Below, one piece after another: positions 4,367 through 25,186 of a stretch of 38,806 nucleotides of DNA; position 1 is the stretch's first letter, and each line of letters starts with the position of its first letter. A model generated the notes under the pieces. It was not told the origin of the DNA and ran no database searches. It was given only the letters and a program-made list of their open reading frames with translations. A program made the position numbers and the translations under genes. The stretch is from Thermoplasmata archaeon (GTDB taxonomy: Archaea > Thermoplasmatota > Thermoplasmata > Thermoplasmatales > Thermoplasmataceae). The stretch spans positions 1 through 38,806 of the forward strand of contig JAJZJR010000015.1 in NCBI GenBank assembly GCA_021810045.1, written 5' to 3'.

Positions 4367-4738
4367 TTAGCGGGAGCACATCACCTTTCTCCTTGCCGAT
4401 GTTGAATACCTGCATGTGTGGATCATGAATGAATCAATGGCGGCAATTGATTCCACTGCATAAAGAAAGGCAATTTCCCTGTTGATTGTGTGCATATCAA
4501 GTGATCCTGCCCTCCTGGAGAGTGTCTGGAACGATGGTATCTCACGAATTCCAATCATTTCCATATATTCCCCATGATTCCTGAGGAATATTGCAGATGA
4601 CCTGTATGATAGACGGAATATCTGCAGCAGGATGAAAATCTTCAGTATCTGTCTGTCTGTGAACTTTCTCTTCCTTTCATCAGGCGAAACTATCTTGTCT
4701 ATGATCTCCATAATCAACGGGATATGCTGTTCGGGCAT
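4367..4738 (-). pseudogene. N-terminal fragment of an IS4/IS5-type DDE transposase
   Basis: A 123-aa open frame containing a helical N-terminal domain (KFTDRQILKIFILLQIFRL), a linker (IPSFQTLSRRAG) and then AAIDSFMIHTCR, which resembles the first catalytic Asp strand of DDE transposases. The frame ends about 15 residues later at VMCSR, so the second Asp and the Glu are absent. Full-length members of these families are about 300-450 aa. It is therefore a 3'-truncated relic. The family (IS4 versus IS5/IS1182) is uncertain. Confidence 0.7.
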
Positions 4739-4782
4739 ATCCCAAAATTATGAACTGGTAGATAATGTTCGACATCAGTCGG

Positions 4783-4798
4783 ACATTTCATGAAATGT
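4783..4798. repeat. Perfect 16-bp palindrome ACATTTCATGAAATGT
   Basis: A perfect dyad with no loop, 11 bp beyond the stop of the GT2 gene (4810-5655) and 45 bp upstream of the transposase fragment's first codon. It could be a terminator, a regulator site, or part of the lost IS element's end. A near-inverted pair GTTCGAC/GTCGGAC lies next to it at about 4768-4783. Confidence 0.5.
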
Positions 4799-4809
4799 GA
4801 GACTCCCTA

Positions 4810-5655
4810 TTACTTTTCAATAAATTGTTGCTGAAGTTTGAAAGATTCAATATCGCCCATTTTACCTGCACAAGGCTCTGCTAAATGTATAGCCAATCCA
4901 GGTAAAGGGGCATATAATGTATATTTCTTTCCAAACAATACTTTGAATGCGTCTACAAGATACAGATTAATTGTACTTTTGATCCACCCCGTCCTTCTCT
5001 TAACATGCGTTAACATTAGCCATATTTGATAATCCCCCAAATTTTTTGTCATATATCGAAAGAAATATTTTTTTGTTTCTTTGAGAACTTTGACAGATGT
5101 AAGAAATGTTAGTGTAGTGGAAGATACAGTTCTATAATGCATACCTTGATAAAATTCTATTCTAGATTTATAGGTGTGTAAATATCTATTCGTACATGAA
5201 ATACTCATATAGTAATCCGGATGGTCATATGGGGTGACAAAATCTGCTTTATTAGAACTATTTAGAAAATTCACTATCTTCAAAAATGTGTCTTGCTTAT
5301 ACAAATAATCATCCTCTGCGAAAAAAATATTATCAGAAAAAGTTTGATTCAACAATACTTCAATTTGCCTCAAGAAAGTATTTCTATTTCCCGCATTAGA
5401 AAGATGTTCAATTGAAAATCTTTCCATGGGAACTAGGCTTTCTATAAACTCTGCGTACACAGGCGGGCAACTATCCAATATAAAATGAATTTTATAATCA
5501 ATGCCTCCTAGGGCAACGATGAAGCTGATTATACAATTTTTGAACATATCAAATTTATCAGCAAATCCTTCAGTAAAAGCGCTTTTGCTGAATCTTGGGT
5601 ATACTCGATAGGCAATATACAATTTTTCTAACCTATCTGTTCCAGAGTTGGTCAT
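4810..5655 (-). CDS. Glycosyltransferase, GT2-like (GT-A fold)
   Basis: A 281-aa soluble protein with the order of a GT-A transferase: N-terminal IAYRVYPRFSKS, a region that would bind the nucleotide (IHFILDSCPP), and a DXD-like metal site NIFFAEDDYLY at about residue 111. This is followed by FVTPYDHPDYYM and the acceptor-side segment NLGDYQIWLMLTHVKRR. It is likely to add one sugar residue to the surface glycan. A possible TATA (ATTTATTAA on the minus strand, 5678-5686) lies 25-30 nt upstream of the ATG, suggesting a leaderless transcript. It is a single gene between two transposase regions. Specificity is unknown. Confidence 0.75.
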   Translation of the reverse strand: MTNSGTDRLEKLYIAYRVYPRFSKSAFTEGFADKFDMFKNCIISFIVALGGIDYKIHFILDSCPPVYAEFIESLVPMERFSIEHLSNAGNRNTFLRQIEVLLNQTFSDNIFFAEDDYLYKQDTFLKIVNFLNSSNKADFVTPYDHPDYYMSISCTNRYLHTYKSRIEFYQGMHYRTVSSTTLTFLTSVKVLKETKKYFFRYMTKNLGDYQIWLMLTHVKRRTGWIKSTINLYLVDAFKVLFGKKYTLYAPLPGLAIHLAEPCAGKMGDIESFKLQQQFIEK

Positions 5656-5748
5656 TTAGAGAAAAATTAGTTCATCATTAATAAATTTGTGGGTTTATAC
5701 AGTATCTCCGAACCGAGTTAATCTTTTAGACAGCAATGGCTATCCTTA

Positions 5749-6905
5749 TTTGGAGAAAGGAAGAGAATGGCCCTCCTCAAACAGTCTTTATTCAGGACTG
5801 TTTGCGGTTTCTTTCCTTTCTCTCCACGTTATTGACCATTGTTGTGCATGCATCGCTCAGTTCCATGAGATACTTCTTGATACTCACCTCCCCATGATAG
5901 AAAAGATACCAGATTGATTCAACAAGCTGTTCGTATGCGAATAGAAAGTATCGAACGCGGATATCCTTGCTCTTTGTCTTGATTTTGCACTCATCCTGCA
6001 CCCTGAACATGGCCTCAATGCGCCATCGGAACCTGTATTTCGCAATGATATGATCCAGATCAATGTCGGATGTGTTTGAGGCAAAGCACCAGTCATAGTA
6101 TTCCTCAGTCCTGTGGCCGAATATCTGTTTCAGGAATGCAAGGTGGATGGAATCCCTGATCTTTTTGCCTTCACTGTATATGGAGAATTCATGCAGTATC
6201 ACTTTCTTCTGGTTCTGGTACATGTATGAGAACTCTTCCTTCACCTGTGGATTCTTTGGCACGAATATGAGGTAGTTCATTTTCCGTTGGTTCAATGACA
6301 TGATCAGTTCCTTTGAATAAAATCCCCGATCAAACAGTAACAGGTCTATATGGCCCAACAGAGATATGAGAAGATCAAGAATTGCTGAGATCTCAGATGG
6401 CGTGTCATTGCCCATTGGTGATGGTACTGACACCATGGGAAGCCTCAGGTCTTTGTTCACAATACTGGCAGTGAGATATGAGAATCTCCCAGTAACACCA
6501 TGATCGCCAGTCCATCCATGTATCCACAGGGAATCACGATCACAATAGAAATCCTCGTGGGTGTAGTCGAATGCGATCATAATGGGATATGTATTATCAG
6601 ATATGGATTTCCTGGACAGTGCTGATATGCGGGAAAACAGGGAATCCCTTATGCCTTTAACTGTATCATTGACAGGATAATGTTCTATTGCCAGATGTAT
6701 TGAATCCGCACTGTCACCGACGGTTTCCAGATACGTGCTGGCAACTGCTGCTTTCAATAATTCGTGGTTGAAATGGAATCCGTTCAGGTATCCCGGATCA
6801 TGCTTGAGTCTCAGGGCGTCGTTGGTGAAGCGTTCCAGAGCGCTCAATGATGTCAGGAGTCTGGTTGGATTGTTCATACCACTACAATGTATACGGTTCT
6901 CCAAA
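5749..6905 (-). mobile_element. Candidate complete IS element with DDE transposase (about 1.16 kb)
   Basis: The transposase 5792-6877 is bracketed by a 9-bp inverted pair, TTTGGAGAA at 5749-5757 and TTCTCCAAA at 6897-6905. This fits a compact IS if the transposase starts at ATG 6875-6877. No convincing target-site duplication is visible outside these ends, so the boundaries are provisional. The right side abuts an IS21 istB relic, so insertion into that relic is likely. Confidence 0.4.
5779..5803. terminator. Hairpin overlapping the transposase stop codon
   Basis: AAACAGTC (5779-5786) and GACTGTTT (5796-5803) form a perfect 8-bp stem with a 9-nt loop. The transposase stop (5792-5794) lies in the loop. 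It may act as a terminator or shield the transposase from outside transcription, as seen in other IS elements. Confidence 0.45.
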
Positions 6906-6922
6906 GGTATTCCTTGGGACAA
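5792..6922 (-). CDS. DDE transposase, IS4-clan (possibly ISH3-like)
   Basis: Up to 376 aa and apparently intact. It has an N-terminal helical domain, the first catalytic Asp in IMIAFDYTHEDFY (about residue 118), the second in LLLFDRGFYSKELI (about 200), and the Glu in YRFRWRIEAMFRVQDE with the Y..R..IE spacing typical of archaeal IS4-clan enzymes. The TTG at 6920-6922 gives the longest frame. The ATG at 6875-6877 (MNNPTRLL, 361 aa) is preferred because it lies inside the candidate inverted repeats and near the usual family length. No frameshift or internal stop is seen, so it may still be active. The exact IS family needs comparison with known elements. Confidence 0.85.
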   Translation of the reverse strand: MSQGIPLENRIHCSGMNNPTRLLTSLSALERFTNDALRLKHDPGYLNGFHFNHELLKAAVASTYLETVGDSADSIHLAIEHYPVNDTVKGIRDSLFSRISALSRKSISDNTYPIMIAFDYTHEDFYCDRDSLWIHGWTGDHGVTGRFSYLTASIVNKDLRLPMVSVPSPMGNDTPSEISAILDLLISLLGHIDLLLFDRGFYSKELIMSLNQRKMNYLIFVPKNPQVKEEFSYMYQNQKKVILHEFSIYSEGKKIRDSIHLAFLKQIFGHRTEEYYDWCFASNTSDIDLDHIIAKYRFRWRIEAMFRVQDECKIKTKSKDIRVRYFLFAYEQLVESIWYLFYHGEVSIKKYLMELSDACTTMVNNVERKERNRKQS

Positions 6923-8373: not shown

Positions 8374-9516
8374 GTGACAGCAACCCAGGGAACGGAAAGT
8401 TCAGACAAAAATGATTTTGACCTTTTATTTGCAGTGAATGGCCTCCCACTTGCTGGCTCAGGAGGCTCAAGAATTGTTGTTGCTCTGGTGAATACCTTAC
8501 ATAAGAAAGGATATAGGATAGGGGCAATTTCATTGCCGAGGGAGCCCTGGACTCGAGTTCTTAGCAAAGACGCCGCAACCCCTTGGATTCAGCGGTTTCT
8601 TCTGAAATTTAATGATTCTCCACTTACGTACAGGCTTTTCAATCCTCTCTTTAGATACCTTATTAGATCACCACTGCACATAAAAATCAATAGGAATGTG
8701 AAAATTATAAAAGGATCAGACATTAAAAAATATAGTTGCAACATGTTCATTGCCACCAATTTCATCAATGCCAACCAGTTGAAATCATTCGGTATACCGC
8801 TTGAAAAGATAATATTATTTTCTCAAATAGATGAAACTGCCAGCCTCTATTCCGGCAAATATTCAAATTTTGCCTTGGAAACCTATAAAAAATTCCCAAA
8901 AAGATTATTCATAAATGAAGATGTGGTTAAACGCTTTCCAGGTTCGAAAAAGATTAACATGGCAATTGATTTATCGGTTTACCGCCTCTTGAATTCAATT
9001 GATTCTAGAAACCCTAAGAAGGTCATCTTCATTGCGAGATCTGGCGAACAGAAGGATCCAGATACGGCTATTGCAACTATGATTGCGATTCACCACACAA
9101 TGAATGATGTTGACATATGTGCTTATGGTAATCTTAACAAAAAAGATCTGCCAGATTTTGTTGATTATTATCTCACTCCTTCTGATGAAGATATTGTTGG
9201 TCTCCTGAATTCATGTTCAATATTTGTGATAACGTCAGTTCTGGAAGGATACCCTGCTCCGCCTCTTGAGGCAATGGCCTGCGGATGTGCAGTCGTTTCA
9301 ACGGATTCAGTCGGAGTCAGAGAATATTTAAATCACGGTGTTAATGGGATCATATGCCCGATTAAGAGCCCTGATTTAATAGCTAAATCTGTTTTAAAAC
9401 TTGTAGCTGATAATCAAGAAAGGATTGAGATTGCCAATAGAGGTTATAAAACTGCAATTAATCATTCATACGAAACGATGTGTCAAAATTTTCTGGACGC
9501 CATAAATTCATATTAA
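8374..9516 (+). CDS. Glycosyltransferase family 4 (GT-B fold)
   Basis: A 380-aa GT4. The N-terminal domain has the glycine-rich loop LPLAGSGGSRIVVALVNTL. The C-terminal domain has FIARSGEQKDPDTAI, then the EX7E motif LEGYPAPPLEAMACGCAVV, and ends with SVGVREYLNHGVNGI. GTG at 8374 is chosen because a TATA box lies 25 nt upstream. It resembles the GT4 at 1538-2683 in both halves, suggesting duplication within the locus. It probably acts in the cytosol or at the inner membrane face on a lipid-linked glycan. Convergent with the GT-C-like gene that ends at 9566. Confidence 0.9.
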   Translation: MTATQGTESSDKNDFDLLFAVNGLPLAGSGGSRIVVALVNTLHKKGYRIGAISLPREPWTRVLSKDAATPWIQRFLLKFNDSPLTYRLFNPLFRYLIRSPLHIKINRNVKIIKGSDIKKYSCNMFIATNFINANQLKSFGIPLEKIILFSQIDETASLYSGKYSNFALETYKKFPKRLFINEDVVKRFPGSKKINMAIDLSVYRLLNSIDSRNPKKVIFIARSGEQKDPDTAIATMIAIHHTMNDVDICAYGNLNKKDLPDFVDYYLTPSDEDIVGLLNSCSIFVITSVLEGYPAPPLEAMACGCAVVSTDSVGVREYLNHGVNGIICPIKSPDLIAKSVLKLVADNQERIEIANRGYKTAINHSYETMCQNFLDAINSY

Positions 9517-15948: not shown

Positions 15949-16874
15949 ATGGCATCTCTCCTTATCCATTCTATAGTTCCATTCAATCCTTTATCCAGAT
16001 TAGTTTCGGGTTTCCACCCCAATAGATTCTTTGCTTTAGTTATATCAGCTGACCTTCTTACTGGGTCATCTTCTCTCTTTCCCACATGGACGATTTTAGA
16101 AGGAGATTTGGTCTTTTTTACAATTAAATTAGCAAGATCAAGAATTGTGATTTCATCTGGCGATCCAATATTGAAGATATTGCCATCTAGGTCATCCATT
16201 GTTATCATTCGCCATGTTGCATCAACCCAGTCATCCACATACAAAAATGATCTTGTTTGTTTCCCGTCACCGTGTATCGTTATATTCTCACCATTTAGAG
16301 CTTGCTGAATGAATCTTGGTACAACTCTTCCATAGAGGCCGTCTGGCCTGATTCTGGGGCCATATACATTGAAAGGCCTCTGTATTCTTGTGTCAAGTCC
16401 AAATTTTCTGTGATATGCCATTGTGAGTGCTTCTGAATATCTCTTCCCTTCATCGTAGCAGCTTCTTATCCCCCAGGAGCTCACATATCCGTAATAAGTC
16501 TCTGGAGTTGGAATCGTTGCTGCATTGCCATAGACTTCAGATGATGACGTATAAACAAACCTGGAATTTCCACGTTTAGCCAGCTCCAAAAGTTTCATGG
16601 TGCCAATAGAGTTTGACATGAGTGTTTCCACAGGGTTAATTATATAATCTTCAGGAGATGGTCTTGCAGCGAGATGAACAATATATTCAAAATTATCCTG
16701 AATACTGGTATCTTCTACTCTCTCTTTGATAATAGTTACTTCCGTCGGAACATTCACTCTGTTGGATGTTGAAAAGTCATCTAAAACAGTTACCTTCAAC
16801 CCCTCCCTGATTGCCCTTTCAGCTAGATGCGAACCAAGGAAACCATTTCCTCCAGAGATTAGTATTTTGTCCAT
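15945..16874 (-). CDS. NAD-dependent sugar-nucleotide epimerase/dehydratase, UDP-glucuronate decarboxylase-like
   Basis: 309-312 aa extended SDR. The NAD loop is GGNGFLGSHL, the active-site Ser/Thr region is VYTSSSEVYGN, and the catalytic Tyr-Lys pair sits in RSCYDEGKRYSE. The CYDEGKR form and FNVYGPRIRPDGLYGRVVPR are characteristic of UDP-xylose synthases (UXS, UDP-glucuronate decarboxylase). The enzyme would turn the UDP-GlcA made by the next gene (ugd) into UDP-xylose. A 4-epimerase role is the alternative. ATG 16874 is preferred to GTG 16883, since a TATA box at 16895-16904 lies 25 nt upstream. First gene of the operon. Confidence 0.85.
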   Translation of the reverse strand: MDKILISGGNGFLGSHLAERAIREGLKVTVLDDFSTSNRVNVPTEVTIIKERVEDTSIQDNFEYIVHLAARPSPEDYIINPVETLMSNSIGTMKLLELAKRGNSRFVYTSSSEVYGNAATIPTPETYYGYVSSWGIRSCYDEGKRYSEALTMAYHRKFGLDTRIQRPFNVYGPRIRPDGLYGRVVPRFIQQALNGENITIHGDGKQTRSFLYVDDWVDATWRMITMDDLDGNIFNIGSPDEITILDLANLIVKKTKSPSKIVHVGKREDDPVRRSADITKAKNLLGWKPETNLDKGLNGTIEWIRRDAM

Positions 16875-16894
16875 GGATGCCACTATCAGACCGG

Positions 16895-16904
16895 TTTATT
16901 ATAA
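16895..16904 (-). promoter_or_regulatory. TATA box of the uxs-ugd-galU operon
   Basis: TTATAATAAA on the minus strand is centred 25 nt upstream of ATG 16874, predicting a leaderless mRNA for the five-gene leftward operon. The divergent GT4 starts at 16971, so this 96-bp gap holds two promoters. TTATA at 16954-16958 is too close to ATG 16971 to be a convincing TATA for the rightward gene. Confidence 0.5.
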
Positions 16905-16970
16905 TTTTGTCACAAGCTATTCCACTGCACAAAAAACTTTAGTTTCATCACAATTATACTTGGTTATCTC

Positions 16971-18080
16971 ATGAAAATCCTCTGGCTTGCGCACCGTGAT
17001 CCCCTGAATCCTAGAGCCGGTGGTGCAGAGCGAATAATTTATGAGGTTGGAATGCGCCTTATAAAAAATGGTCATCAGGTCTCAGTTCTGGCAGGCGGCT
17101 GGAAAAACTGTGAGAGAGAGGAAATACTGAACGGAATCCGCGTAATGAGATTTGGCCACCGTGTTGGCCCCCATGTCGCCCTGACCGTGCACCTTTTGAA
17201 GCACAGGTATGATGTTATCATTGCAGATTTGGGTCATGCTGTGCCATGGATATCCCCAGTCCTATTGAGGAGGAAGACTATAGTTTCATTTCTACATCTT
17301 CACGCGAGATCACTTCCAGGACAGGTTGGAAGGTTACTTGCGTATTTTATAACTGCTTTGGAGAAATTGTATTTCATAATTTACAATAATTCACATTTTG
17401 TAACCATTTCAAATACATCATTTGCTGATCTAGAAAGTCTGGGAATAAAATCAAAAAATATCTCCATAATACGTCCAGGTGTGAATAGTGAACTGTTCCA
17501 CCCTGCAATAAAAACTGGATATCCGTCAGTTGTTTATTTCGGTGGCATGCGTCGGTACAAGAGGCCTGAAGAATCGCTGTACCTCTTAAAGGAACTCAGA
17601 AATGAAATTAAAGATCTCAAGCTGACAATAATTGGCGATGGGCCTTGCAGGAGTAACCTTGAGAAATTGTGCGTGGAACTGGGTATAAGAGAGAATGTAA
17701 AATTTGCAGGTAGAATATCGGATAGCGAAGTAGCAGGGATTGTTGCATCCTCATGGTTAAACATTCATTCCTCGGTTACGGAGGGCTGGGGCATATCCAT
17801 AATTGAAGCCGCATCGGCCGGCACACCTACCGTTGCATTTAAAGTACCAGGGGTTTCTGATAGCGTGGAAAACGGTTTAAATGGCATAACCGTTGAGAAT
17901 GGCAACAGGCAATCACTGACTGAAGCTGCACTGGAGATCCTGAGAAATCCCGAAAAATGGCGGACATCCTCGGTCAAAGTGGCGCAGAAATATTCCTGGG
18001 ACAAAACCGCGGAATTGTGGGAAAAGCTGATCAAAGAAATAACTGACGAACGCCATAGCAAAGAAGACGTGAAATCATAA
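16971..18080 (+). CDS. Glycosyltransferase family 4 (GT-B fold)
   Basis: A 369-aa GT4 starting MKILWLAHRDPLNPRAGGAE, the classical N-terminal glycine loop (RAGGAER). The donor domain has VVYFGGMRRYKRPEE and LTIIGDGPCRSNLE. The EX7E motif is TEGWGISIIEAASAGTPTVA, followed by VPGVSDSVENGLNGI. The motifs are all intact, so it is likely active in transferring a hexose or deoxyhexose onto a lipid-linked acceptor. It is divergent from the uxs operon and followed 27 nt later by gmd, which has its own TATA box. Donor unknown. Confidence 0.92.
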   Translation: MKILWLAHRDPLNPRAGGAERIIYEVGMRLIKNGHQVSVLAGGWKNCEREEILNGIRVMRFGHRVGPHVALTVHLLKHRYDVIIADLGHAVPWISPVLLRRKTIVSFLHLHARSLPGQVGRLLAYFITALEKLYFIIYNNSHFVTISNTSFADLESLGIKSKNISIIRPGVNSELFHPAIKTGYPSVVYFGGMRRYKRPEESLYLLKELRNEIKDLKLTIIGDGPCRSNLEKLCVELGIRENVKFAGRISDSEVAGIVASSWLNIHSSVTEGWGISIIEAASAGTPTVAFKVPGVSDSVENGLNGITVENGNRQSLTEAALEILRNPEKWRTSSVKVAQKYSWDKTAELWEKLIKEITDERHSKEDVKS

Positions 18081-18087
18081 TATATAT
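18079..18087 (+). promoter_or_regulatory. TATA box of gmd
   Basis: AATATATAT, overlapping the stop of the upstream GT4 gene, is centred 25 nt before the gmd ATG at 18108. This predicts an independent leaderless transcript in addition to read-through. Confidence 0.5.
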
Positions 18088-18107
18088 CCCTTTCAATTCC
18101 CCGTAAT

Positions 18108-19118
18108 ATGAAAGCAGTAATCACTGGCATATCAGGTCAGGACGGATATTTTCTTTCACAGCTTCTTCTGTCAAAGGGATACGAGGTGCATGGCATTTTG
18201 CGCCGGAATAGCTCAATGACCCAGGGCACTGTAGATCTCCTGCCGGAGAGTATCAGAAAACAGATCATCATTCACTACGGTGATATAACGGATGGAAACT
18301 TTCTCTCAAATCTTCTTTTGAAGGAGAAACCTGAAGAACTCTATCATCTGGCTGCACAGAGTTTTGTGGGATACAGTTTTCAGAACGCTCTTTCCACATA
18401 CGATGCCAATATTGGAGGCACTCTCAATGTCTGCAATGCTGTGAAGGATTCATCTCCCGATACTAGAATGTATTTTGCTGCAACATCAGAACTGTTCGGG
18501 CAGCCAAAGGAGACCCCGCAGAACGAAATGACACCATTCTTCCCCAGGAGTCCCTATGCAGTATCAAAACTTGCAGGCATCTGGACAGTGAGAACATACA
18601 GGGAAGCATACAAACTATTCATGTCTAACGGTATATTGTTCAACCATGAATCAGAGGTTCGGGGACCTGAGTTTGTGACCAGGAAGATATCCCGTTCTGT
18701 GGCAAGGATATTCCATGGCTCAAAGGAACCAGTTGTACTGGGGAACCTCTCTGCAGTGAAGGACTGGGGATATGCCGGGGATTATGTGGAAGGCATGTGG
18801 ATGATGCTCCAGCAGGACTACCCGGATGATTTCGTTCTGGGTACTGGAGAATCACATACAGTCAGGGAATTTGCCGAGGCTGCATTCAAGGAGATTGACA
18901 TGGATATTGAATGGATTGGCAGCGGGATGAATGAGGTCGGGCTATCAGAAGGTATGACAAGAGTTAAGGTCAGCAGGGAATTTTACAGGCCTTTGGAATC
19001 TGATAACTATCGCGCAGACTATTCAAAGGCTAAACAAACCATTGGGTGGAAGCCAAAAACCGGGTTCAGGGATCTGGTAAAAATAATGGTGAAGAACGAT
19101 ATAGACCTCACGGGATGA
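18108..19118 (+). CDS. gmd: GDP-mannose 4,6-dehydratase
   Basis: 336 aa; converts GDP-D-mannose to GDP-4-keto-6-deoxy-D-mannose. The NADP loop is ITGISGQDGYFLSQLLLSKG, LRRNSS binds the phosphate, the catalytic region is AATSELFGQ (T126, E128), and SPYAVSKLAG holds Y150 and K154. The GDP-mannose signature NHES..RGPEFVTRKI is present with EV in place of the usual PR. Length is normal. The ketosugar normally needs a reductase, epimerase or aminotransferase (Rmd, GMER/Fcl, Per) to become GDP-rhamnose, GDP-fucose or GDP-perosamine. None is recognisable in this window, so the partner must be elsewhere. Confidence 0.93.
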   Translation: MKAVITGISGQDGYFLSQLLLSKGYEVHGILRRNSSMTQGTVDLLPESIRKQIIIHYGDITDGNFLSNLLLKEKPEELYHLAAQSFVGYSFQNALSTYDANIGGTLNVCNAVKDSSPDTRMYFAATSELFGQPKETPQNEMTPFFPRSPYAVSKLAGIWTVRTYREAYKLFMSNGILFNHESEVRGPEFVTRKISRSVARIFHGSKEPVVLGNLSAVKDWGYAGDYVEGMWMMLQQDYPDDFVLGTGESHTVREFAEAAFKEIDMDIEWIGSGMNEVGLSEGMTRVKVSREFYRPLESDNYRADYSKAKQTIGWKPKTGFRDLVKIMVKNDIDLTG

Positions 19119-19222
19119 CATCGGGTCCTTTTAAGCATATAAACTGAAACTATCATTCACTATACCGGTATCCTTCCGGAATGCACAACTTTATTGTTTT
19201 CATTTCACATGATTGTTTTATT

Positions 19223-19280
19223 GCCCCGTACGGCCGGTATACGGGACACCGTACGGTTAAGCATACGGAATGGTGTACGG
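19223..19280 (+). repeat. Iteron-like array: five TACGG units at 11-12 bp spacing
   Basis: TACGG occurs at 19229, 19240, 19252, 19264 and 19276, i.e. every 11, 12, 12 and 12 bp, close to one DNA turn. Two of the units sit in the palindrome CCGTACGG (19226-19233 and 19249-19256; the latter extends to ACCGTACGGT). A further GTACG is at 19307-19311. Helically phased repeats are typical of origin iterons, centromere-like parS sites and cooperative operators. Which of these applies is inference. Confidence 0.6.
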
Positions 19281-19332
19281 ATATACCGGCGGCGGTGCCG
19301 GCCGGTGTACGAAAAATGGCACATGACGATGA

Positions 19333-19345
19333 CCCCATCATGGGG
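19333..19345. repeat. Short perfect dyad CCCCAT-C-ATGGGG
   Basis: A 6-bp arm, 1-nt centre inverted repeat between the TACGG array and the larger hairpin. It adds to the density of symmetric sites in this gap. No specific role can be assigned. Confidence 0.4.
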
Positions 19346-19373
19346 GGCTATTCACTGCAACATCACGGGCTGA

Positions 19374-19396
19374 GAATTTGCAGTTTCTGCAAATTC
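19374..19396. repeat. Perfect 10-bp hairpin with TTT loop
   Basis: GAATTTGCAG (19374-19383) and CTGCAAATTC (19387-19396) are exact inverted repeats. A second, imperfect dyad centred on GCCGGCGG follows at 19399-19421 (CCGATTC / GAATTCGG). It lies about 320 bp upstream of any start codon, so it is not an attenuator. Possible cruciform, protein-binding site or small-RNA element. Confidence 0.5.
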
Positions 19397-19688
19397 ACGC
19401 CGATTCGCCGGCGGGAATTCGGATCAGATTTCGGGCTGGCTGGCAAAAATTCCGTACATGCTTCCGGCATGGCATCTCCGATCGTGTTTTAAGAAATTCC
19501 GGAGCAGATTGGACATCAATGAAAACTGACCGCATCGGGACCGGCAATGGACGCTTGATCAGTAGAGCATGCAGTAGCAAATTCAATTATGCTCCGGAAC
19601 TGCACTGTGCGATTATGAAAATTACAAGCTTTCCTTTCATCAATTGTACTGCAGACCCTGAAAATCTGGTTCGGAATTTCAATGTAAA

Positions 19689-19696
19689 TATAAATA
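19689..19696 (+). promoter_or_regulatory. TATA box of the 692-aa gene
   Basis: TATAAATA is centred 25-26 nt upstream of ATG 19718, an ideal leaderless archaeal arrangement that fixes the start codon. Confidence 0.6.
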
Positions 19697-19717
19697 CAAT
19701 GAACTCTTATTTTTTAC

Positions 19718-21796
19718 ATGGACATTCAAACGCTTCGCAAGGTAATTGAGCTCTACCTCAGGGGATTCGGCTATCAGGAGATATCAAAGCGGACTGGCAC
19801 TGCCAAATCCACGGTCCAGGACACAGTGAACAGATGGAGGGAGGGCCAGACAGACATATTCGACCAGGCTCTCAGCTATGTCGACGAAATCACGGAGATT
19901 GCCAGGGGCATGAGGCAGAACGGCACCAGGATTGAGGATTTGAAGATGCCTTTCCTGAACGCATCCGTTCTCAGGGGCCTCAACATTGATCTGCAGGAAC
20001 TTTATTCATTTTACGATGCTGTCAGGGGCTATGGGCCTGATGTCGTTTCAGCGATGGCAAAGACTGTCATTGCGCTCCAGTCCCATGGCATGGATCCTGC
20101 AGGCATGGTGCAAAGGCTGGAATCCCTTGGCAATGAAATAAGGGAGATGGAGAACAGGAAGGATCAACTCCTGCAGGATGTATCGGCAGTAGATAAGGAA
20201 CTGAAGGCAAAGAATGGGGTGAAGGCATCGCTTGAGAAAGAGGTATCAGAACTGCGCGAGTCGGTGAGTTCACTGAAGAAGCAGGGGAAAACCATGGCTG
20301 ATGGCATAAAGAGGGACAGCGGCCGCATTGCGAAATCCGACAGATTCTGGTCAGCCGTGGAGGGCATGGGCATCGATCCCGCAAGCATAGGGGAATTCAT
20401 GGAAAGCGCCAGATCCATGGGGTATGATGCAAGAACAATACCGGATATCAGGGAGATTGAAAAATACGGAATGGACCGGTCAATGTCACCGGATGACATG
20501 CGCACTCTTGTGGTGAGCCTGCGCCAGCTCAATTCCGCGGGATGGTCTCCGGACAGCATTGTCAAGCTCTCCATTGCAATGGGCGGTGTTGCCGATACTC
20601 CCGGCGCTGTGATTGAACACATGCGCAAATACTCAAAAAAGTACAGGAATGTGGATAAGGCCATTGAGGAACTGGACAGGCAGCTTTCCGCTGCTCATAA
20701 AGAACATGAACTGCAGATTGCCAACCTGAAAGCTGATGCTGAGGAAGTTGCAGCCCAGATCGGCGACCTGCAAAGGACACGGGATTCCATTGACAGCGAA
20801 ATCACCGAACTGAACCGGAAAAAGGAGGAGGCAGAGAGCGAATACAGACAGGCTGTGGAAATATTGAGGCAGTACACAGGCTCTGTTGTGAGTATGATTG
20901 ATCTCCAGGATACCATCAGCAGGCAGAACAAAATGAAAAAGGATCTGGAGACATCGATAGGCGCACTGAACAGAAAGCTTGCCGGGATGAAAATATCCGC
21001 TGAGGTTGCTGAGGCGCTCCCGTCCATCATAAAGGGAAGGGACATGAAGACGGCGGAGCTGTGCGTGGCCTTCACTGCCGGATCCAATTCCAATGCAGCC
21101 AGTGAAGAAATGATCAGGGATAGAATCATAAATGACATCATAGAAATAAGCGAGGGCGGCATTGTCCCGGTGCGTTACTCCTCCTATGATCGATTCATCT
21201 CCGGGTCCCAGTATGACAGCCTCATGAAGCTTGATAGGGAAAGGATAAAGATATCGGAGGAAAAAAATGAACTTGAAAACCTGCGTAATCTCTATGGCAG
21301 GGACATAGGATCATATCTGAATGATTATCTTTCAGGAAAACTTCCCGGCGATTCACCTGGCTACAGGATGATCAGGGAGATTGCCGAGAAGTCATTTCTC
21401 CATGAGGTGCAGAAAAGGCTCGACTTGAAGGCCATTGTGGAAATTGGGAAGGACAGCGGTGCCGGGAACCCGTTGATATTTTTCGTTGCACCCGGCGGAT
21501 CATCGGGCAGGGTTGATGTTGGATCAATAAGCATACAGGATCTGGTGGCAGGGATAAGGTCAGGTTCCGGAACCGTGGAAATGCAGACCGGTAACGGAAA
21601 GGTATCGCTTGACACATGCACCGCGGTCATGGAGTTACTGGAAATGTATCTGAATCCGGCCACGCTGGAGATGCTCAGGAAGGCGTGGAGGGAATCCGTT
21701 ATCAATAAGACTGATAAACACGAAAAGGCCGGTCTGCCAAGGTACGGAGGGCTGGTCAATAGGGATAAGATGGGGGAAAGGAAGAGGTCAGGATGA
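19718..21796 (+). CDS. HTH/coiled-coil protein with internal repeats, unknown function
   Basis: 692 aa, not recognised as a known family. Residues 5-42 form a homeodomain-like HTH (VIELYLRGFGYQEISKRTG, then TAKSTVQDTVNRWREG) like those of transposases and ParB/Trp-repressor-type proteins. Long heptad-rich coiled coils occupy about 134-200, 311-385, 397-425 and 505-525. Between them, short units with the pattern G-(M/I/W)-(D/S)-P recur: HGMDPAGM (123-130), MGIDPASI (217-224) and AGWSPDSI (274-281). A C-terminal compact domain (about 540-660) contains LIFFVAPGGSSG. There is no Walker A, nuclease or polymerase motif. Leaderless start. The 3' end overlaps the convergent 88-aa gene by 9 nt. An architectural, SMC-like or replication/segregation role is plausible but inferred. 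Confidence 0.85.
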   Translation: MDIQTLRKVIELYLRGFGYQEISKRTGTAKSTVQDTVNRWREGQTDIFDQALSYVDEITEIARGMRQNGTRIEDLKMPFLNASVLRGLNIDLQELYSFYDAVRGYGPDVVSAMAKTVIALQSHGMDPAGMVQRLESLGNEIREMENRKDQLLQDVSAVDKELKAKNGVKASLEKEVSELRESVSSLKKQGKTMADGIKRDSGRIAKSDRFWSAVEGMGIDPASIGEFMESARSMGYDARTIPDIREIEKYGMDRSMSPDDMRTLVVSLRQLNSAGWSPDSIVKLSIAMGGVADTPGAVIEHMRKYSKKYRNVDKAIEELDRQLSAAHKEHELQIANLKADAEEVAAQIGDLQRTRDSIDSEITELNRKKEEAESEYRQAVEILRQYTGSVVSMIDLQDTISRQNKMKKDLETSIGALNRKLAGMKISAEVAEALPSIIKGRDMKTAELCVAFTAGSNSNAASEEMIRDRIINDIIEISEGGIVPVRYSSYDRFISGSQYDSLMKLDRERIKISEEKNELENLRNLYGRDIGSYLNDYLSGKLPGDSPGYRMIREIAEKSFLHEVQKRLDLKAIVEIGKDSGAGNPLIFFVAPGGSSGRVDVGSISIQDLVAGIRSGSGTVEMQTGNGKVSLDTCTAVMELLEMYLNPATLEMLRKAWRESVINKTDKHEKAGLPRYGGLVNRDKMGERKRSG

Positions 21797-22054
21797 CTTC
21801 ATCTGCATTTCCTCAGCATGGGATGCGAGGATTGAAGCGGCCATGACACACGCATAGTCACCAGGGTCTGGTAATCCAATCCTCAGAAGCCTCTCCATGG
21901 TCTCAGCCGCAAGGTCAGGAATGCTGTCCTGGAATTCATGCAGAATTCCATTCATAATGGCATCATGGGATAGAATATCAACGAGGAATTCAACCGTATT
22001 CCTGAAATCTTCATCAACAGCATCGAGATCCCAATCCGCATTCCGTTCCGCCAT
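21788..22054 (-). CDS. Small acidic helical protein, unknown function
   Basis: 88 aa starting MAERNADWDLDAVDEDFRN. It is strongly acidic and appears all-helical (TVEFLVDILSHDAIM...), with no recognised motif. ATG 22054 is preferred over an upstream in-frame start at 22147 because the longer form would overlap the winged-helix gene by 77 nt, and an AT-rich TATA-like stretch lies at about 22065-22078. The stop overlaps the end of the 692-aa gene tail to tail by 9 nt. The next gene upstream on the same strand is the winged-helix regulator. The acidic charge would suit a partner of a DNA-binding or basic protein, which is inference only. Confidence 0.6.
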   Translation of the reverse strand: MAERNADWDLDAVDEDFRNTVEFLVDILSHDAIMNGILHEFQDSIPDLAAETMERLLRIGLPDPGDYACVMAASILASHAEEMQMKSS

Positions 22055-22070
22055 TGCGAAATCAATACAT

Positions 22071-22370
22071 TTATTTATATAAACTATACCCACGCAGCTT
22101 CTGCACGTCTGGAAATTCCTTCCTGACTGTGTCAAGAATGGATGCAATCCTCTTCCCCTTCTCAGTCAGCGATATGAAAAACACCCTCCTGCCCTGCATC
22201 TCCTCCCTCATGGCTGTGATGCCCTCATCCGTCAGTGTTTTCAGCAGCGCGTCAATGGTGTTTATGGAGGGGCCGAAATCCATGATCTGCATCTTCTTCA
22301 CCTCTCCCCTGTCGTATATGCCCAGGATAACCGAAACTGCATGCTTCTCCGACAGCGTCTTCAATATCAT
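22071..22370 (-). CDS. Winged-helix DNA-binding regulator (MarR/PadR-like)
   Basis: 99 aa. Helices H1-H3 run through LSEKHAVSVILGIYDRG, FGPSINTIDALLKTLTDEG (recognition-helix region), then the wing REEMQGRRVFFISLTEKGKR and a C-terminal helix IASILDTVRKEF. This is the size and order of single-domain archaeal wHTH regulators. Its start region overlaps an inverted repeat TGATTG-N28-CAATCA (22377-22416), so autoregulation and control of the divergent Rad52-like gene is likely. A similar wHTH (AspA of pNOB8) acts in archaeal plasmid partition, but there is no specific evidence for that role here. Confidence 0.8.
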   Translation of the reverse strand: MILKTLSEKHAVSVILGIYDRGEVKKMQIMDFGPSINTIDALLKTLTDEGITAMREEMQGRRVFFISLTEKGKRIASILDTVRKEFPDVQKLRGYSLYK

Positions 22371-22376
22371 AATTCA

Positions 22377-22416
22377 TGATTGAAGATGCATTCTTAATCC
22401 TTATGATGCACAATCA
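22377..22416. promoter_or_regulatory. Candidate operator in the divergent wHTH/Rad52-like promoter region
   Basis: TGATTG (22377-22382) and CAATCA (22411-22416) are inverted repeats flanking the putative wHTH promoter. The right arm is part of ATGATGCACAAT (22403-22414), which recurs exactly at the start codon of the RHH gene (23355-23366). A shared site would link regulation of both genes. This is inference from sequence identity. Confidence 0.4.
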
Positions 22417-22434
22417 AGCTTGATGGCGGATACC

Positions 22435-22441
22435 TTATATA
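22435..22441 (+). promoter_or_regulatory. TATA box of the Rad52-like gene
   Basis: TTATATA is centred 25 nt upstream of ATG 22463, predicting a leaderless transcript. The overlapping ACATGTATTACATGCATG stretch (22441-22458) is partly symmetric and could be bound by a regulator. Confidence 0.55.
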
Positions 22442-22462
22442 CATGTATTACATGCATGAATC

Positions 22463-23074
22463 ATGGACATCAAACTGGAGGGCTGGACATTCATGCCCAG
22501 CTATATGGCAGAAGCCATGAATGCAAGGCTTCGTGAGATATTTGCGGGAATGGCGGAGAACACGCACTTCATAATGAAAGGGGAGAAGCCCACGCTGCTC
22601 AAGGCAGGCGCTGAGGTTATCATGATGCAGATGGGGCTGACTTTCCACTCCCGCGTTGTGTCACACAGGCACAGCACGGGAGAGTTCATTGCCGAAACCG
22701 TGATCTACCGCGATGGCGTTGAACTGGGCAACGGTCTGGGCTATGCGGCCGCATCGGATCACGGCAGTGATGGGAATGCGGCACTGAAGATGGCAAAGAA
22801 GAGGTCATACATCGATGCTGTCCTGAGCGTCACGGGCGCATCCTCAATATTCACGCAGGATTACGGCGAATCCGGCAATCCCATAACAAGGAACCAGCTC
22901 TCATACATCTCCAGCCTCGCCAGGGGCAGCCAGATCCCCGATGATGTCATGGAGGCCATGGTGCATGCATGCGGCTCCGAAAAAATACAGGAGATGTCAA
23001 AGCAGCAGGCATCAAGGCTCATTGATTCCATGCTGAAGTACATCCACAGCGGGAACCATGGCGGAAACAGGTGA
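22463..23074 (+). CDS. Rad52/Rad22-like single-strand annealing protein candidate
   Basis: 203 aa. The N-terminal half has FIMKGEKPTLLKAGAEVIMM, like the fold start of phage and plasmid Rad52-type annealing proteins (GK.flt.aGae.l...fgl). The middle has ETVIYRDGVELGNGLGYAAA and then the hallmark ALKMAKKRSYIDAVLSVTGA followed by SSIFTQD. The C-terminal segment ITRNQLSYISSL...MSKQQASRLIDSML is an accessory helical domain seen after such cores. It would anneal complementary single strands in replication or recombination of a mobile element. Family assignment rests on motifs only. A related DNA-binding protein without annealing activity is possible. Leaderless ATG start; flanked by DNA-binding proteins. 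Confidence 0.65.
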   Translation: MDIKLEGWTFMPSYMAEAMNARLREIFAGMAENTHFIMKGEKPTLLKAGAEVIMMQMGLTFHSRVVSHRHSTGEFIAETVIYRDGVELGNGLGYAAASDHGSDGNAALKMAKKRSYIDAVLSVTGASSIFTQDYGESGNPITRNQLSYISSLARGSQIPDDVMEAMVHACGSEKIQEMSKQQASRLIDSMLKYIHSGNHGGNR

Positions 23075-23076
23075 AT

Positions 23077-23087
23077 TTTATATATTC
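23077..23087 (+). promoter_or_regulatory. TATA box of the small basic protein gene
   Basis: TTTTATATATT lies about 24 nt upstream of the GTG at 23106, supporting the GTG start over an out-of-frame ATG at 23102 that leads only to an 11-codon frame. Confidence 0.5.
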
Positions 23088-23105
23088 TCCTTCCTATATA
23101 CATGA

Positions 23106-23330
23106 GTGCAGAAGGACCGCAGCCTGAAGCTTCTTGACGATCTCGATCTGGTCATGGCGCAGATCATCAGGGAGAGCAAAACTGTCAGGAGGGATGCAAG
23201 GAAGGCCAGGAAGCTCATGGCATCCGGCAGGACACGTAAGGCGCTGAAGCGCATATCCCGCATCAGGAATGCGGACATGGATGAACTGATGTCATACATG
23301 AAGGGCATCATAAACCAGATGATCAGGTGA
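23106..23330 (+). CDS. Small basic helical protein, unknown function
   Basis: 74 aa, GTG start, rich in Arg/Lys (RESKTVRRDARKARKLMA, RTRKALKRISRIRN) and predicted to be entirely helical. No family recognised. The charge and setting between a Rad52-like and an RHH protein suggest nucleic-acid binding or contact with the acidic 88-aa protein. It has its own TATA box, and the next gene starts 35 nt later. Confidence 0.65.
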   Translation: MQKDRSLKLLDDLDLVMAQIIRESKTVRRDARKARKLMASGRTRKALKRISRIRNADMDELMSYMKGIINQMIR

Positions 23331-23335
23331 GTGAA

Positions 23336-23344
23336 ATTTTTATC
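23336..23344 (+). promoter_or_regulatory. TATA-like element of the RHH gene
   Basis: AATTTTTAT is centred about 25 nt upstream of ATG 23365. The start codon lies inside the repeated ATGATGCACAAT motif (23355-23366), so a bound regulator would cover the transcription start. Confidence 0.4.
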
Positions 23345-23364
23345 AGTGCTGGTCATGATGCACA

Positions 23365-23823
23365 ATGGAGAAGAAGCGCATATCATTATCAATACCTGCT
23401 GATTTATATGACAGGCTGGAGGACATAAGGGAGAAGAGGCAGCCCATGTCCGGGCTGATATCTGACATCCTGCATTTTTATGCGGACAACCACGGGAATA
23501 TACTGACGAAAGACGAGCACATGGCGATCATAGGAAAGAAGGACGAGGCCATTCAGGATCTGAGCAGAAGGATTGACGATCTGAATGCCACAGTGGACGG
23601 ACTGACGGAGAAGATCAGGTCGATATCACATGAACTGGGCATGGCTCTGGATGAGGTAAAGCAGAAGGACAATGATTTCAGGGAGATGCGTGACGACCGC
23701 AACAACATTGCAAGCATAAACAGGGTGCTCCAGAGCACCATTGAGGAACTCAGGGAGGAGAATGAAAGCCTCCGTGAGAGGGTGAACGGCCGGAGGATCT
23801 TTGGCAGAGGCCCGGGAAAATAA
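23365..23823 (+). CDS. Ribbon-helix-helix protein with C-terminal coiled coil
   Basis: 152 aa. Residues 3-42 fit the RHH (CopG/MetJ) fold: a beta strand KKRISLSIPADLYDRLEDI, then helix RQPMSGLISDILHFYADN. Residues about 65-140 are a continuous coiled coil (LSRRIDDLNATVDGLTEKI...ELREENESLRERV). RHH proteins bind DNA as dimers. The long coiled coil suggests higher-order assembly, as in segregation adaptors (SegB/ParG-type), rather than a simple repressor. No ParA/SegA ATPase is visible nearby, which weakens a standard partition model. Last gene of the module; about 100 bp separates it from the convergent GT2. Confidence 0.75.
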   Translation: MEKKRISLSIPADLYDRLEDIREKRQPMSGLISDILHFYADNHGNILTKDEHMAIIGKKDEAIQDLSRRIDDLNATVDGLTEKIRSISHELGMALDEVKQKDNDFREMRDDRNNIASINRVLQSTIEELREENESLRERVNGRRIFGRGPGK

Positions 23824-23924
23824 CATTCAGTTTGCAATGTTTCATTCACTGTTCCGGGGTGCATATGCCTGCCGCACCAGCACATGCAGCTGAAAGGTGG
23901 AGCAGGCTGATCCTGAGGGTCAGA

Positions 23925-24773
23925 TCATAACCATCTGAACTTTCTGCGGTAAAGCTTAATGAGGAATTGCGGAACATGAGCATAGAGCGGCGAATTCCTG
24001 ATCCTGAATGCAGCCAGTGAAATGCCGAAGCTCATTGCCATGGACAGGGGATTGAGTTTTCCGTTGTCGGCATGAGTGTATTCGGCCGGCGTTTCCGTAA
24101 TCCGGCCGCCCATCTTTTTTATATGGTACAGCAGAGCAACATCATACGATGCGTTTGTCACAGTCACTCTGCGCATTGCATGAATAAAGAAATCGCTCCG
24201 GAACAGTTTATAGCCGCTCTGTGTATCGGAAACATTTAAGCCGGTAATGGATCGGACAATTATGTTGAAGCCCCGGCTCAGGAAACGCCTCAGCAGTGGT
24301 ATCTTGTTTTTTCCGGTATAACGGGACAGAATTACGGCATCACACTTCTCCAGCAGTTGTACCGCCTCGACGATATCAAGGAAACCAATGCTGTTGTCAG
24401 CATCCATCAGTATGGTGAATTCGCCATCGATGTTTGGCAGCACCCTTTTTATTGCACCGCCTTTCCCACTTCTTTCATGGCTCTGATCGATACTTATGAA
24501 ATCGTATGTTTCAGCAAAACTTACTGCAATATCGTAGGTGGTATCGTTACCGTCTATTGCAACAATGACATCCCAGGGAAGCTTGTTTTCAGAGACGAAG
24601 CGGCATATGTCATTCAACACCGGAGCAATGCGTTTTTCCTCGTTGTATGCCGGTATAATGATGGTGAATCTCTTCAGATATATACCAGGAATTTGTTTTT
24701 TCTTTTCCGATGTTGTGAAGTCTGCCCGGTGAACTGTTTGGTTTGTTTCCAATACTAAGCATAATATGGGCAT
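23925..24773 (-). CDS. Dolichol-phosphate mannosyltransferase-like GT2
   Basis: Up to 282 aa, GT-A fold. It has RFTIIIPAYNEEKRIAPVLN, VIVAIDGNDTT, the DXD motif FTILMDADNS, ILSRYTGK and NVSDTQSGYKLFRSDF, the signature series of DPM1/DPG synthases. These make polyprenyl-phosphate-linked mannose or glucose used by GT-C enzymes outside the membrane. There is no C-terminal membrane domain, so it is the soluble type. The annotated ATG 24773 leaves about 30 unaligned residues. A TTAAATAA at about 24776-24785 would give a leaderless TTG start near 24752, so the start is uncertain. It could charge the lipid donor used by the GT-C-like protein at 9566. Confidence 0.85.
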   Translation of the reverse strand: MPILCLVLETNQTVHRADFTTSEKKKQIPGIYLKRFTIIIPAYNEEKRIAPVLNDICRFVSENKLPWDVIVAIDGNDTTYDIAVSFAETYDFISIDQSHERSGKGGAIKRVLPNIDGEFTILMDADNSIGFLDIVEAVQLLEKCDAVILSRYTGKNKIPLLRRFLSRGFNIIVRSITGLNVSDTQSGYKLFRSDFFIHAMRRVTVTNASYDVALLYHIKKMGGRITETPAEYTHADNGKLNPLSMAMSFGISLAAFRIRNSPLYAHVPQFLIKLYRRKFRWL

Positions 24774-25186
24774 TATTTAATAATTTTCCCTGTCTCATTT
24801 CAGATTCTGTTTCTTTTCGTGGTCTGGAACAGAATTTGTCATTCCCAGTGCTTGATTCCATATACGGAATTCTAGATATTATTTTAAGGGTATTAATTTT
24901 CCATATAAACATTAATTATCAATACATTACTACATGTTAGGGATGAACCGATTACATTGCCAAATATTCCATTGATAAGATCCAATACGATGTCTTTTGC
25001 TTTTTCATTTCCTTCTTCAGTGTTTGGCTGTGGTGTCATAACAGGAAATGACCACGTATTTCACCAACCGGGAGGAATTCTGCAACACACTTTAGGAAAA
25101 TAAAAAAAAGACAGGTTAGGGATAATTCACACATACTTCAAAAGACAAGGAGAGATTCGAAGTTTCGATCTATAGCTGGCAAATAG
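24774..25186. other. Intergenic region with a 48-codon orphan frame (24893-25039, minus)
   Basis: Between two leftward genes. A minus-strand frame from ATG 25039 to TAA 24893 reads MTPQPNTEEGNEKAKDIVLD and onward to LINGIFGNVIG, which looks protein-like but matches no family I know. It may be a relic of a deleted gene. No repeats or strong promoters seen otherwise. Confidence 0.35.

Follow-up and report, generated by a model that had tools for sequence, protein, structure and literature searches.

The window, by which we mean the whole stretch of DNA that was analyzed, is an entire 38.8-kb contig (C5) of a 2.26-Mb genome (G000). It is a surface-glycan locus, with genes for glycosyltransferases, a GDP-mannose dehydratase and epimerases. 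Six open reading frames (ORFs) are present at 19718-23823, most of them under purifying selection, and all six were confirmed as the initial annotation had described them. We refer to these genes and the 600-bp leader that precedes them as the module. A GT4 glycosyltransferase gene (16971..18080, + strand) and a gene for GDP-mannose 4,6-dehydratase (GMD; 18108..19118, + strand) lie to the left of the module, and a GT2 glycosyltransferase gene (23925..24773, - strand) lies to its right. All three belong to a block that is shared with another genus (see below). As had been noted, the module is GC-richer (49.8% at 19119-23823) than the remaining window outside this block (39.0%); other sampled pieces of the same genome had a GC content of 38.7-45.9%. 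There were no tRNA genes within the window that could have been an insertion site, and no Rfam match was found at 16800-25000. Two matches to transposase DDE genes were seen within the glycan locus, at 4367-6922.

The first gene of the module (19718..21796, + strand) encodes a 692-aa HTH/coiled-coil protein, HCC, and is followed by five smaller ORFs, for which dN/dS was determined by comparison with the copy of the module in another genus (G104). An acidic 88-aa ORF (21788..22054, - strand) has its own TATA box, and its coding status is less certain (dN/dS 0.64). Next is a gene for a 99-aa wHTH regulator (22071..22370, - strand; dN/dS 0.14) from a family found beside integrases. The remaining three genes, all on the + strand, encode a 203-aa protein of the phrog_10048 family that is predicted to be a single-strand annealing protein of the Rad52/Sak fold (22463..23074; dN/dS 0.19), a small basic protein of 74 aa with a conserved GTG start (23106..23330; dN/dS 0.11), and a 152-aa RHH and coiled-coil protein that is found only in G000 and G104 (23365..23823; dN/dS 0.15). 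Several of the genes had been proposed to have their own promoters. The acidic, Rad52-like and basic genes each have a clear TATA-like box centered ~25 bp upstream of the start, the boxes of the HCC and RHH genes are weaker, and none was seen for the wHTH gene.

In the window, G104 and G088, the wHTH and Rad52-like genes point away from each other, and an exact 15-mer, ACAATCAAGCTTGAT, lies between them in all three genera. This putative wHTH operator is located in the divergent promoter (22410..22424 in the window), and with one mismatch it occurs at only one more site in G104 and one more in G088. A 12-mer, ATGATGCACAAT (+ strand), is present twice, once between the divergent genes (22403..22414) and once at 23355..23366, where it overlaps the start of the RHH gene. 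The pair is retained in G104 and could be a shared operator.

HCC has an HTH at residues 8-44, coiled coils at ~127-216 and ~295-423, and a C-terminal domain. The HTH matched the Homeodomain-like HTH_23 family above the model cut-off. A single-sequence AF2 model had two long helices with confident cores; as a whole it was poor (pLDDT 49) and unfit for a fold search. At the two ends of the protein, dN/dS against the copy in the other genus was 0.09-0.32. Searching with the 692-aa query and then with a six-member alignment (A1), we found that HCC founds a family of 650-720-aa proteins that can be aligned end to end at ~20-22% identity. Among 400 genomes of the class, full-length members were confined to this archaeal order, which gene content and the initial annotation suggest to be Thermoplasmatales, and the long relatives (in G088, G074, G059, G035 and G031) are all from it. 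The copy in G074 is split by a frameshift, that in G039 is truncated, and those in G048 and G104 are broken; HCC is therefore dispensable in these four genomes. A piece of HCC is present at a contig end in G106. A short form of ~330 aa (L075-L084) occurs in families f2 and f5, where its gene neighbourhoods are conserved and not glycan-related.

HCC is new: no protein family model covers it, and no paper that we found describes it. This part of the initial annotation, which had placed the 692-aa protein at the center of the module as a new component, stands, and the segregation or tethering role suggested for it is plausible from the iteron-like array described below. The KfrA model was absent among the Pfam families listed for six HCC-family members (E≤0.01). 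No sequence similarity to RacA or pSK1 Par was detected, and a PDB profile search gave only coiled-coil or repeat proteins and weak matches to transposase HTHs. There was no match above cut-off to an NTPase in HCC. Matches of HCC and of the RHH protein to PADLOC and NCBIfam models were coiled-coil noise. Known HCC copies sit in genome assemblies, mostly in glycan loci, and no copy was found in phages, plasmids, viral contigs or IMG/VR, where the scans reach close relatives only.

The 600-bp region preceding HCC had been noted as structured, and it contains both a repeat array and an inverted repeat. The array consists of five helically phased direct repeats of RTACGG (19228..19280, + strand), which start at 19228, 19239, 19251, 19263 and 19275 and are thus 11, 12, 12 and 12 bp apart; none of 60 shuffles reached five copies. 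TRF did not detect the window array. A second cis element, ~95 bp past the array, is the inverted repeat AATTTGCAG-TTT-CTGCAAATT (19375..19395, + strand). In G000, G106, G109, G088 and G074, this element has TTGCAG inside a GTGAACTTGCAGTTTCT-like sequence, 133-151 nt from the array start. HCC leaders are long (480-740 bp), and the arrays are 260-530 bp upstream of HCC, away from its promoter. A phased array of 5-7 short direct repeats precedes each intact HCC gene (5/5), and the core differs by lineage: RTACGG x5 in G000 and G104 (in G106 all five are present and one core is altered), YGTCCG x5 in G074, TGTCT x5 in G059, RTTCAA x6-7 in G035, G031 and G039, and CCAT x5 in G088 (spacing 12, 11, 12, 11). 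There was no array at the HCC pseudogene of G048; in that genome an array precedes a different small HTH ORF, by ~190 bp. In G028, a TTTACC x5 array is ~2 kb upstream of a 439-aa HCC relative, with two genes between them.

We scanned 721 kb of loci from this order for arrays with at least five copies of a 6-nt core, no more than one mismatch, and constant spacing. In the G000 and f5 groups and in G074 and G059, the arrays identified precede HCC; the remaining two adjoin further HTH/coiled-coil genes. All eight matches in a scan of 682 kb for exact 4-nt cores were by HCC-type genes, including that of G088. Bacterial control loci held nine such arrays in 850 kb, and therefore it is the recurrence of arrays at HCC that is diagnostic, and not the presence of an array by itself. 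With the bacterial background, the association between arrays and HCC had a P of 7.6e-8, and this and the other P values for that association are a guide only, because the search rule was chosen after the first arrays had been seen. A search of 117 genomes for TACGG triplets recovered the HCC loci of G000 and G106, a contig edge in G109 beside a glycosyltransferase relative, and three further matches, all in family f3. The TACGG pattern was also present in at least 120 viral contigs. These matches were uninformative; their exact-multiple spacing suggests coding repeats.

Independent support for the arrays is that their cores are kept while the spacers change. None of the 25 positions in the TACGG cores of the G109 array was changed, compared to 12 of 28 other array positions (P 1e-4), and in the f5 arrays the corresponding numbers were 0/35 and 4/37. 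The f5 leaders of G031 and G035 are 81.7% identical, slightly above the HCC coding sequences (76.9%). The most alike recognition helices (KSTVQDTVNRWR in G000 and KSTVQDYINRWR in G074) go with the most alike cores (GTACG and GTCCG), a single comparison that hints that recognition helix and array core may co-diverge.

The module and the genes on either side of it have been exchanged between genera. Window segments 16970-19853, 20845-20987, 21460-23823 and 23931-24802 are collinear in G104 at ~89-94% DNA identity. Identity by feature over the exchanged block (16970-24802) is 86-97%, compared to 78.2% for the rpoB region. Block identity is thus above that of rpoB, and the two genera recently shared all six genes together with the 600-bp leader, GMD and the glycosyltransferase. 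The GC content of the module (~50%) is close to that of the rpoB region of G104 (49.4%) and exceeds the value for its own genome (44.6%). This is compatible with a G104-like donor and leaves the direction of transfer unproven. In G104, HCC is broken by two internal deletions, and the other five ORFs are intact. The deletions (L034 10304-10446) removed ~998 and ~480 bp, have junctions with 7-8-bp overlaps, and look as if they had occurred between short direct repeats. In G106, the match starts at approximately 19225-19230 of the window, the start of the repeat array, beside a more diverged glycosyltransferase gene and without GMD; one edge of the module is therefore near 19.23 kb. Upstream of HCC in G088 (L036 ~8938-9200) are remnants of the end of the window's glycosyltransferase gene and of the start of GMD, which suggests that the linkage of glycosyltransferase, GMD and HCC is old.

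The AF2 model of the Rad52-like protein (59 sequences; pLDDT 89) has a core of a helix, a three-strand sheet and a helix, and contains the beta-beta-beta-alpha fold of the Rad52 type. In Foldseek, the best PDB match was the SSAP 80alpha-Sak (8qe9; E 9e-5, probability 1.00), and the next were RAD52 and Mgm101. Because TM-scores were modest (0.31-0.37), we base the fold assignment on the combination of E-value, probability and topology. This fold match agrees with the Rad52-type annealase proposed from the sequence, and the protein would, on its predicted structure, have strand annealing activity. No curated Pfam annealase family matched it; there was only a sub-threshold match to DUF3072. For the phrog_10048 family, annotated as unknown function, the genome collection contained 317 confirmed stretches; of the 80 kept, most were from Bacillota. 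Relatives of the Rad52-like protein in phages D6E and E2 adjoin Gp157 and replication genes, and relatives also occur on plasmids. The Rad52-like protein thus resembles the phage Sak/Rad52 annealing proteins (PMC8093625; PDB 8qe9) in its predicted fold and in the position of the phage genes beside Gp157, and differs from them in having no Pfam annealase match and an extra C-terminal helical domain. Stand-alone proteins of 184-186 aa from the order (L006, L009, L017 and L018) are three copies of this domain, which has the motif NQ..FI..L...EAS.LID.L.

Relatives of the wHTH and Rad52-like genes occur beside tyrosine integrases in the same family, in support of the mobile-element origin that had been put forward. 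In G050 (C58), a Rad52-like relative is directly upstream of a tyrosine integrase gene and a wHTH relative is 3 kb away. wHTH relatives adjoin integrases in G000 (three contigs), G050, G069 and G089. In other elements, a 120-143-aa companion ORF is directly upstream of the tyrosine integrase (L204, L205, L212 and L214); it could be an excision or accessory factor. The companion family also accompanies HCC in G035, G031, G039, G028 and G088, the last being a weak match (pairwise E 0.004). In f5 glycan islands it is found alongside HCC and flippase genes, with six matches in G039. The module is like the integrative elements of the same family in its wHTH and, for the G050 element, in its annealase, but it has neither integrase nor companion gene, and HCC was not seen in those elements. 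As previously reported, model searches of the module proteins found no integrase or Rep; none of the six matched an integrase model. Since phages, plasmids and viral contigs yielded no HCC gene, a mobile-element origin of HCC itself rests on its neighbours. In G088, HCC is on a different contig from the wHTH/Rad52 pair, and so they need not work together.

The module genes had been described as having no link to sugars. That is not the case for HCC, whose relatives recur in sugar loci. The glycan loci that hold the long forms also encode flippases, dehydratases, glycosyltransferases and S-layer-like proteins. Taking GT2 and epimerase genes as glycan markers, and counting a carrier when at least two markers were within 15 kb, we found that nine of ten HCC copies were near such markers (Fisher P 1e-6; 9e-6 without the duplicate in G104, and 9e-5 also without two f5 relatives). 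The single exception, in G059, is at a contig end. This is an association and not proof of function, because any accessory genes may gather in such islands. A literature search found nothing specific on glycan islands with such genes in this order.

Several known systems resemble HCC and its array. KfrA of the IncU plasmid RA3 has an HTH near its N terminus, a long alpha-helical oligomerizing tail and no ATPase, and it acts in autoregulation and plasmid maintenance; beside its gene is a single operator that comprises five short direct repeats (PMC7783346). HCC likewise has an HTH at the N terminus, a long coiled coil after it, and no ATPase domain, and its gene has a five-repeat array with conserved cores as a putative operator. 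However, the KfrA repeats are 9 bp, lie over the promoter and include two that are inverted, whereas the HCC array is well upstream and strictly phased at 11-12 bp. KfrA is also only about half as long as HCC and comes from a bacterial plasmid, whereas HCC is in a chromosomal glycan island, was not found to be carried by plasmids, and has no sequence similarity to KfrA. pSK1 Par, RocS and RacA (discussed in PMC11500499) are, like HCC, HTH and coiled-coil proteins, and act in segregation or anchoring without an NTPase. They have a MerR-type wHTH and a DUF536/amphipathic helix or disordered tail, in contrast to the Homeodomain-like HTH, two coiled coils and different C-terminal domain of HCC. 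The TubZRC type III partition system has direct repeats upstream of its operon that are bound by an HTH protein, and its TubY is an HTH/coiled-coil protein (PMC5016525), but the HCC module has no tubulin-like TubZ. No motor NTPase of the kind in ParABS, TubZRC or ParMRC was found above cut-off among the six module proteins. HCC resembles KfrA and pSK1 Par in architecture and may act in a similar way; sequence searches matched it to neither.

We favor, with a probability of roughly one half, the interpretation that the module combines an NTPase-free, KfrA/pSK1-Par-like DNA-tethering autoregulator with a wHTH-controlled annealase, that it descends from integrative elements, and that it resides, often decaying, in exchangeable glycan islands. 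It would be a domesticated, integrase-less fragment of such elements that travels with the islands, in which HCC and its array would form a recurring core without integrase or replication genes. The function that we infer for HCC begins with its HTHs, which would bind next to one another along the same face of the array. The coiled coils would oligomerize and bridge or tether the array DNA, adding to its stability, and the complex may also regulate HCC. The wHTH protein probably represses the divergent Rad52/Sak-type annealase gene through ATCAAGCTTGAT, and the annealase could help incoming DNA, or that of the island, to anneal and recombine. A stronger claim, which we make only tentatively, is that HCC and the phased array are a new kind of NTPase-free system in archaea, for DNA tethering or segregation, whose protein and repeat cores diverge together across lineages, and that this system was captured by surface-glycan islands and keeps the islands or moves them between genera.

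Other explanations give HCC or the module a different role. HCC might be a transcription regulator dedicated to the glycan genes around it, which, by binding the array, would loop or bridge DNA in the manner of a nucleoid protein and so switch or silence the island. Its recurrence in glycan islands of two families, its long and conserved leader, and the location of the G074 array ~95 bp upstream of a divergent glycan-locus gene could be accounted for in this way. In the window, however, the array is downstream of the GMD stop codon with no glycan promoter there, broken HCC copies are found within otherwise intact glycan loci, and some f5 glycan loci have the companion gene without HCC, making this role doubtful. 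It also seems unlikely that the module is unrelated mobile-element debris, with HCC, wHTH and annealase co-residing in islands that are recombination hot spots and having no function for them. Pseudogenes are indeed frequent (G104, G048, G074 and G039), transposase genes are nearby, and module gene content varies between islands. Nevertheless, most module genes have been under purifying selection since the inter-genus split of the block, and the array cores have been retained. Moreover, the three G000 contigs on which wHTH relatives adjoin integrases (C28, C33 and C48) lack a glycan marker, and thus mobile-element genes are not, as a rule, tied to islands.

It is very improbable that the module is an integrated replicon's complete core for replication and segregation, as envisaged in the initial annotation. 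An iteron-like array, an annealase and wHTH and RHH proteins are typical of replicons, and wHTH and annealase occur in integrative elements, but there is no initiator, primase, helicase or polymerase among the module genes, leaving the proposed replication function without its enzymes. Nor is the gene order conserved as a unit; the six genes are not conserved together beyond G000 and G104, and HCC is broken in one of the two. We give least credence to an anti-virus defence cassette. Surface-glycan islands face viruses, and phage conflict systems include annealases and coiled-coil proteins, but the module has no effector enzyme, and PADLOC models gave only the coiled-coil noise described above.

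On our preferred interpretation, of a DNA-tethering autoregulator and a controlled annealase, the phrog_10048 family would gain a predicted annealase function. If HCC binds the array, these archaea would have a centromere-like site that a single protein binds without an NTPase partner, and the site would mark gene islands that build the cell surface. It would then provide a concrete handle on the exchange of surface-glycan islands between genera of acidophilic archaea.
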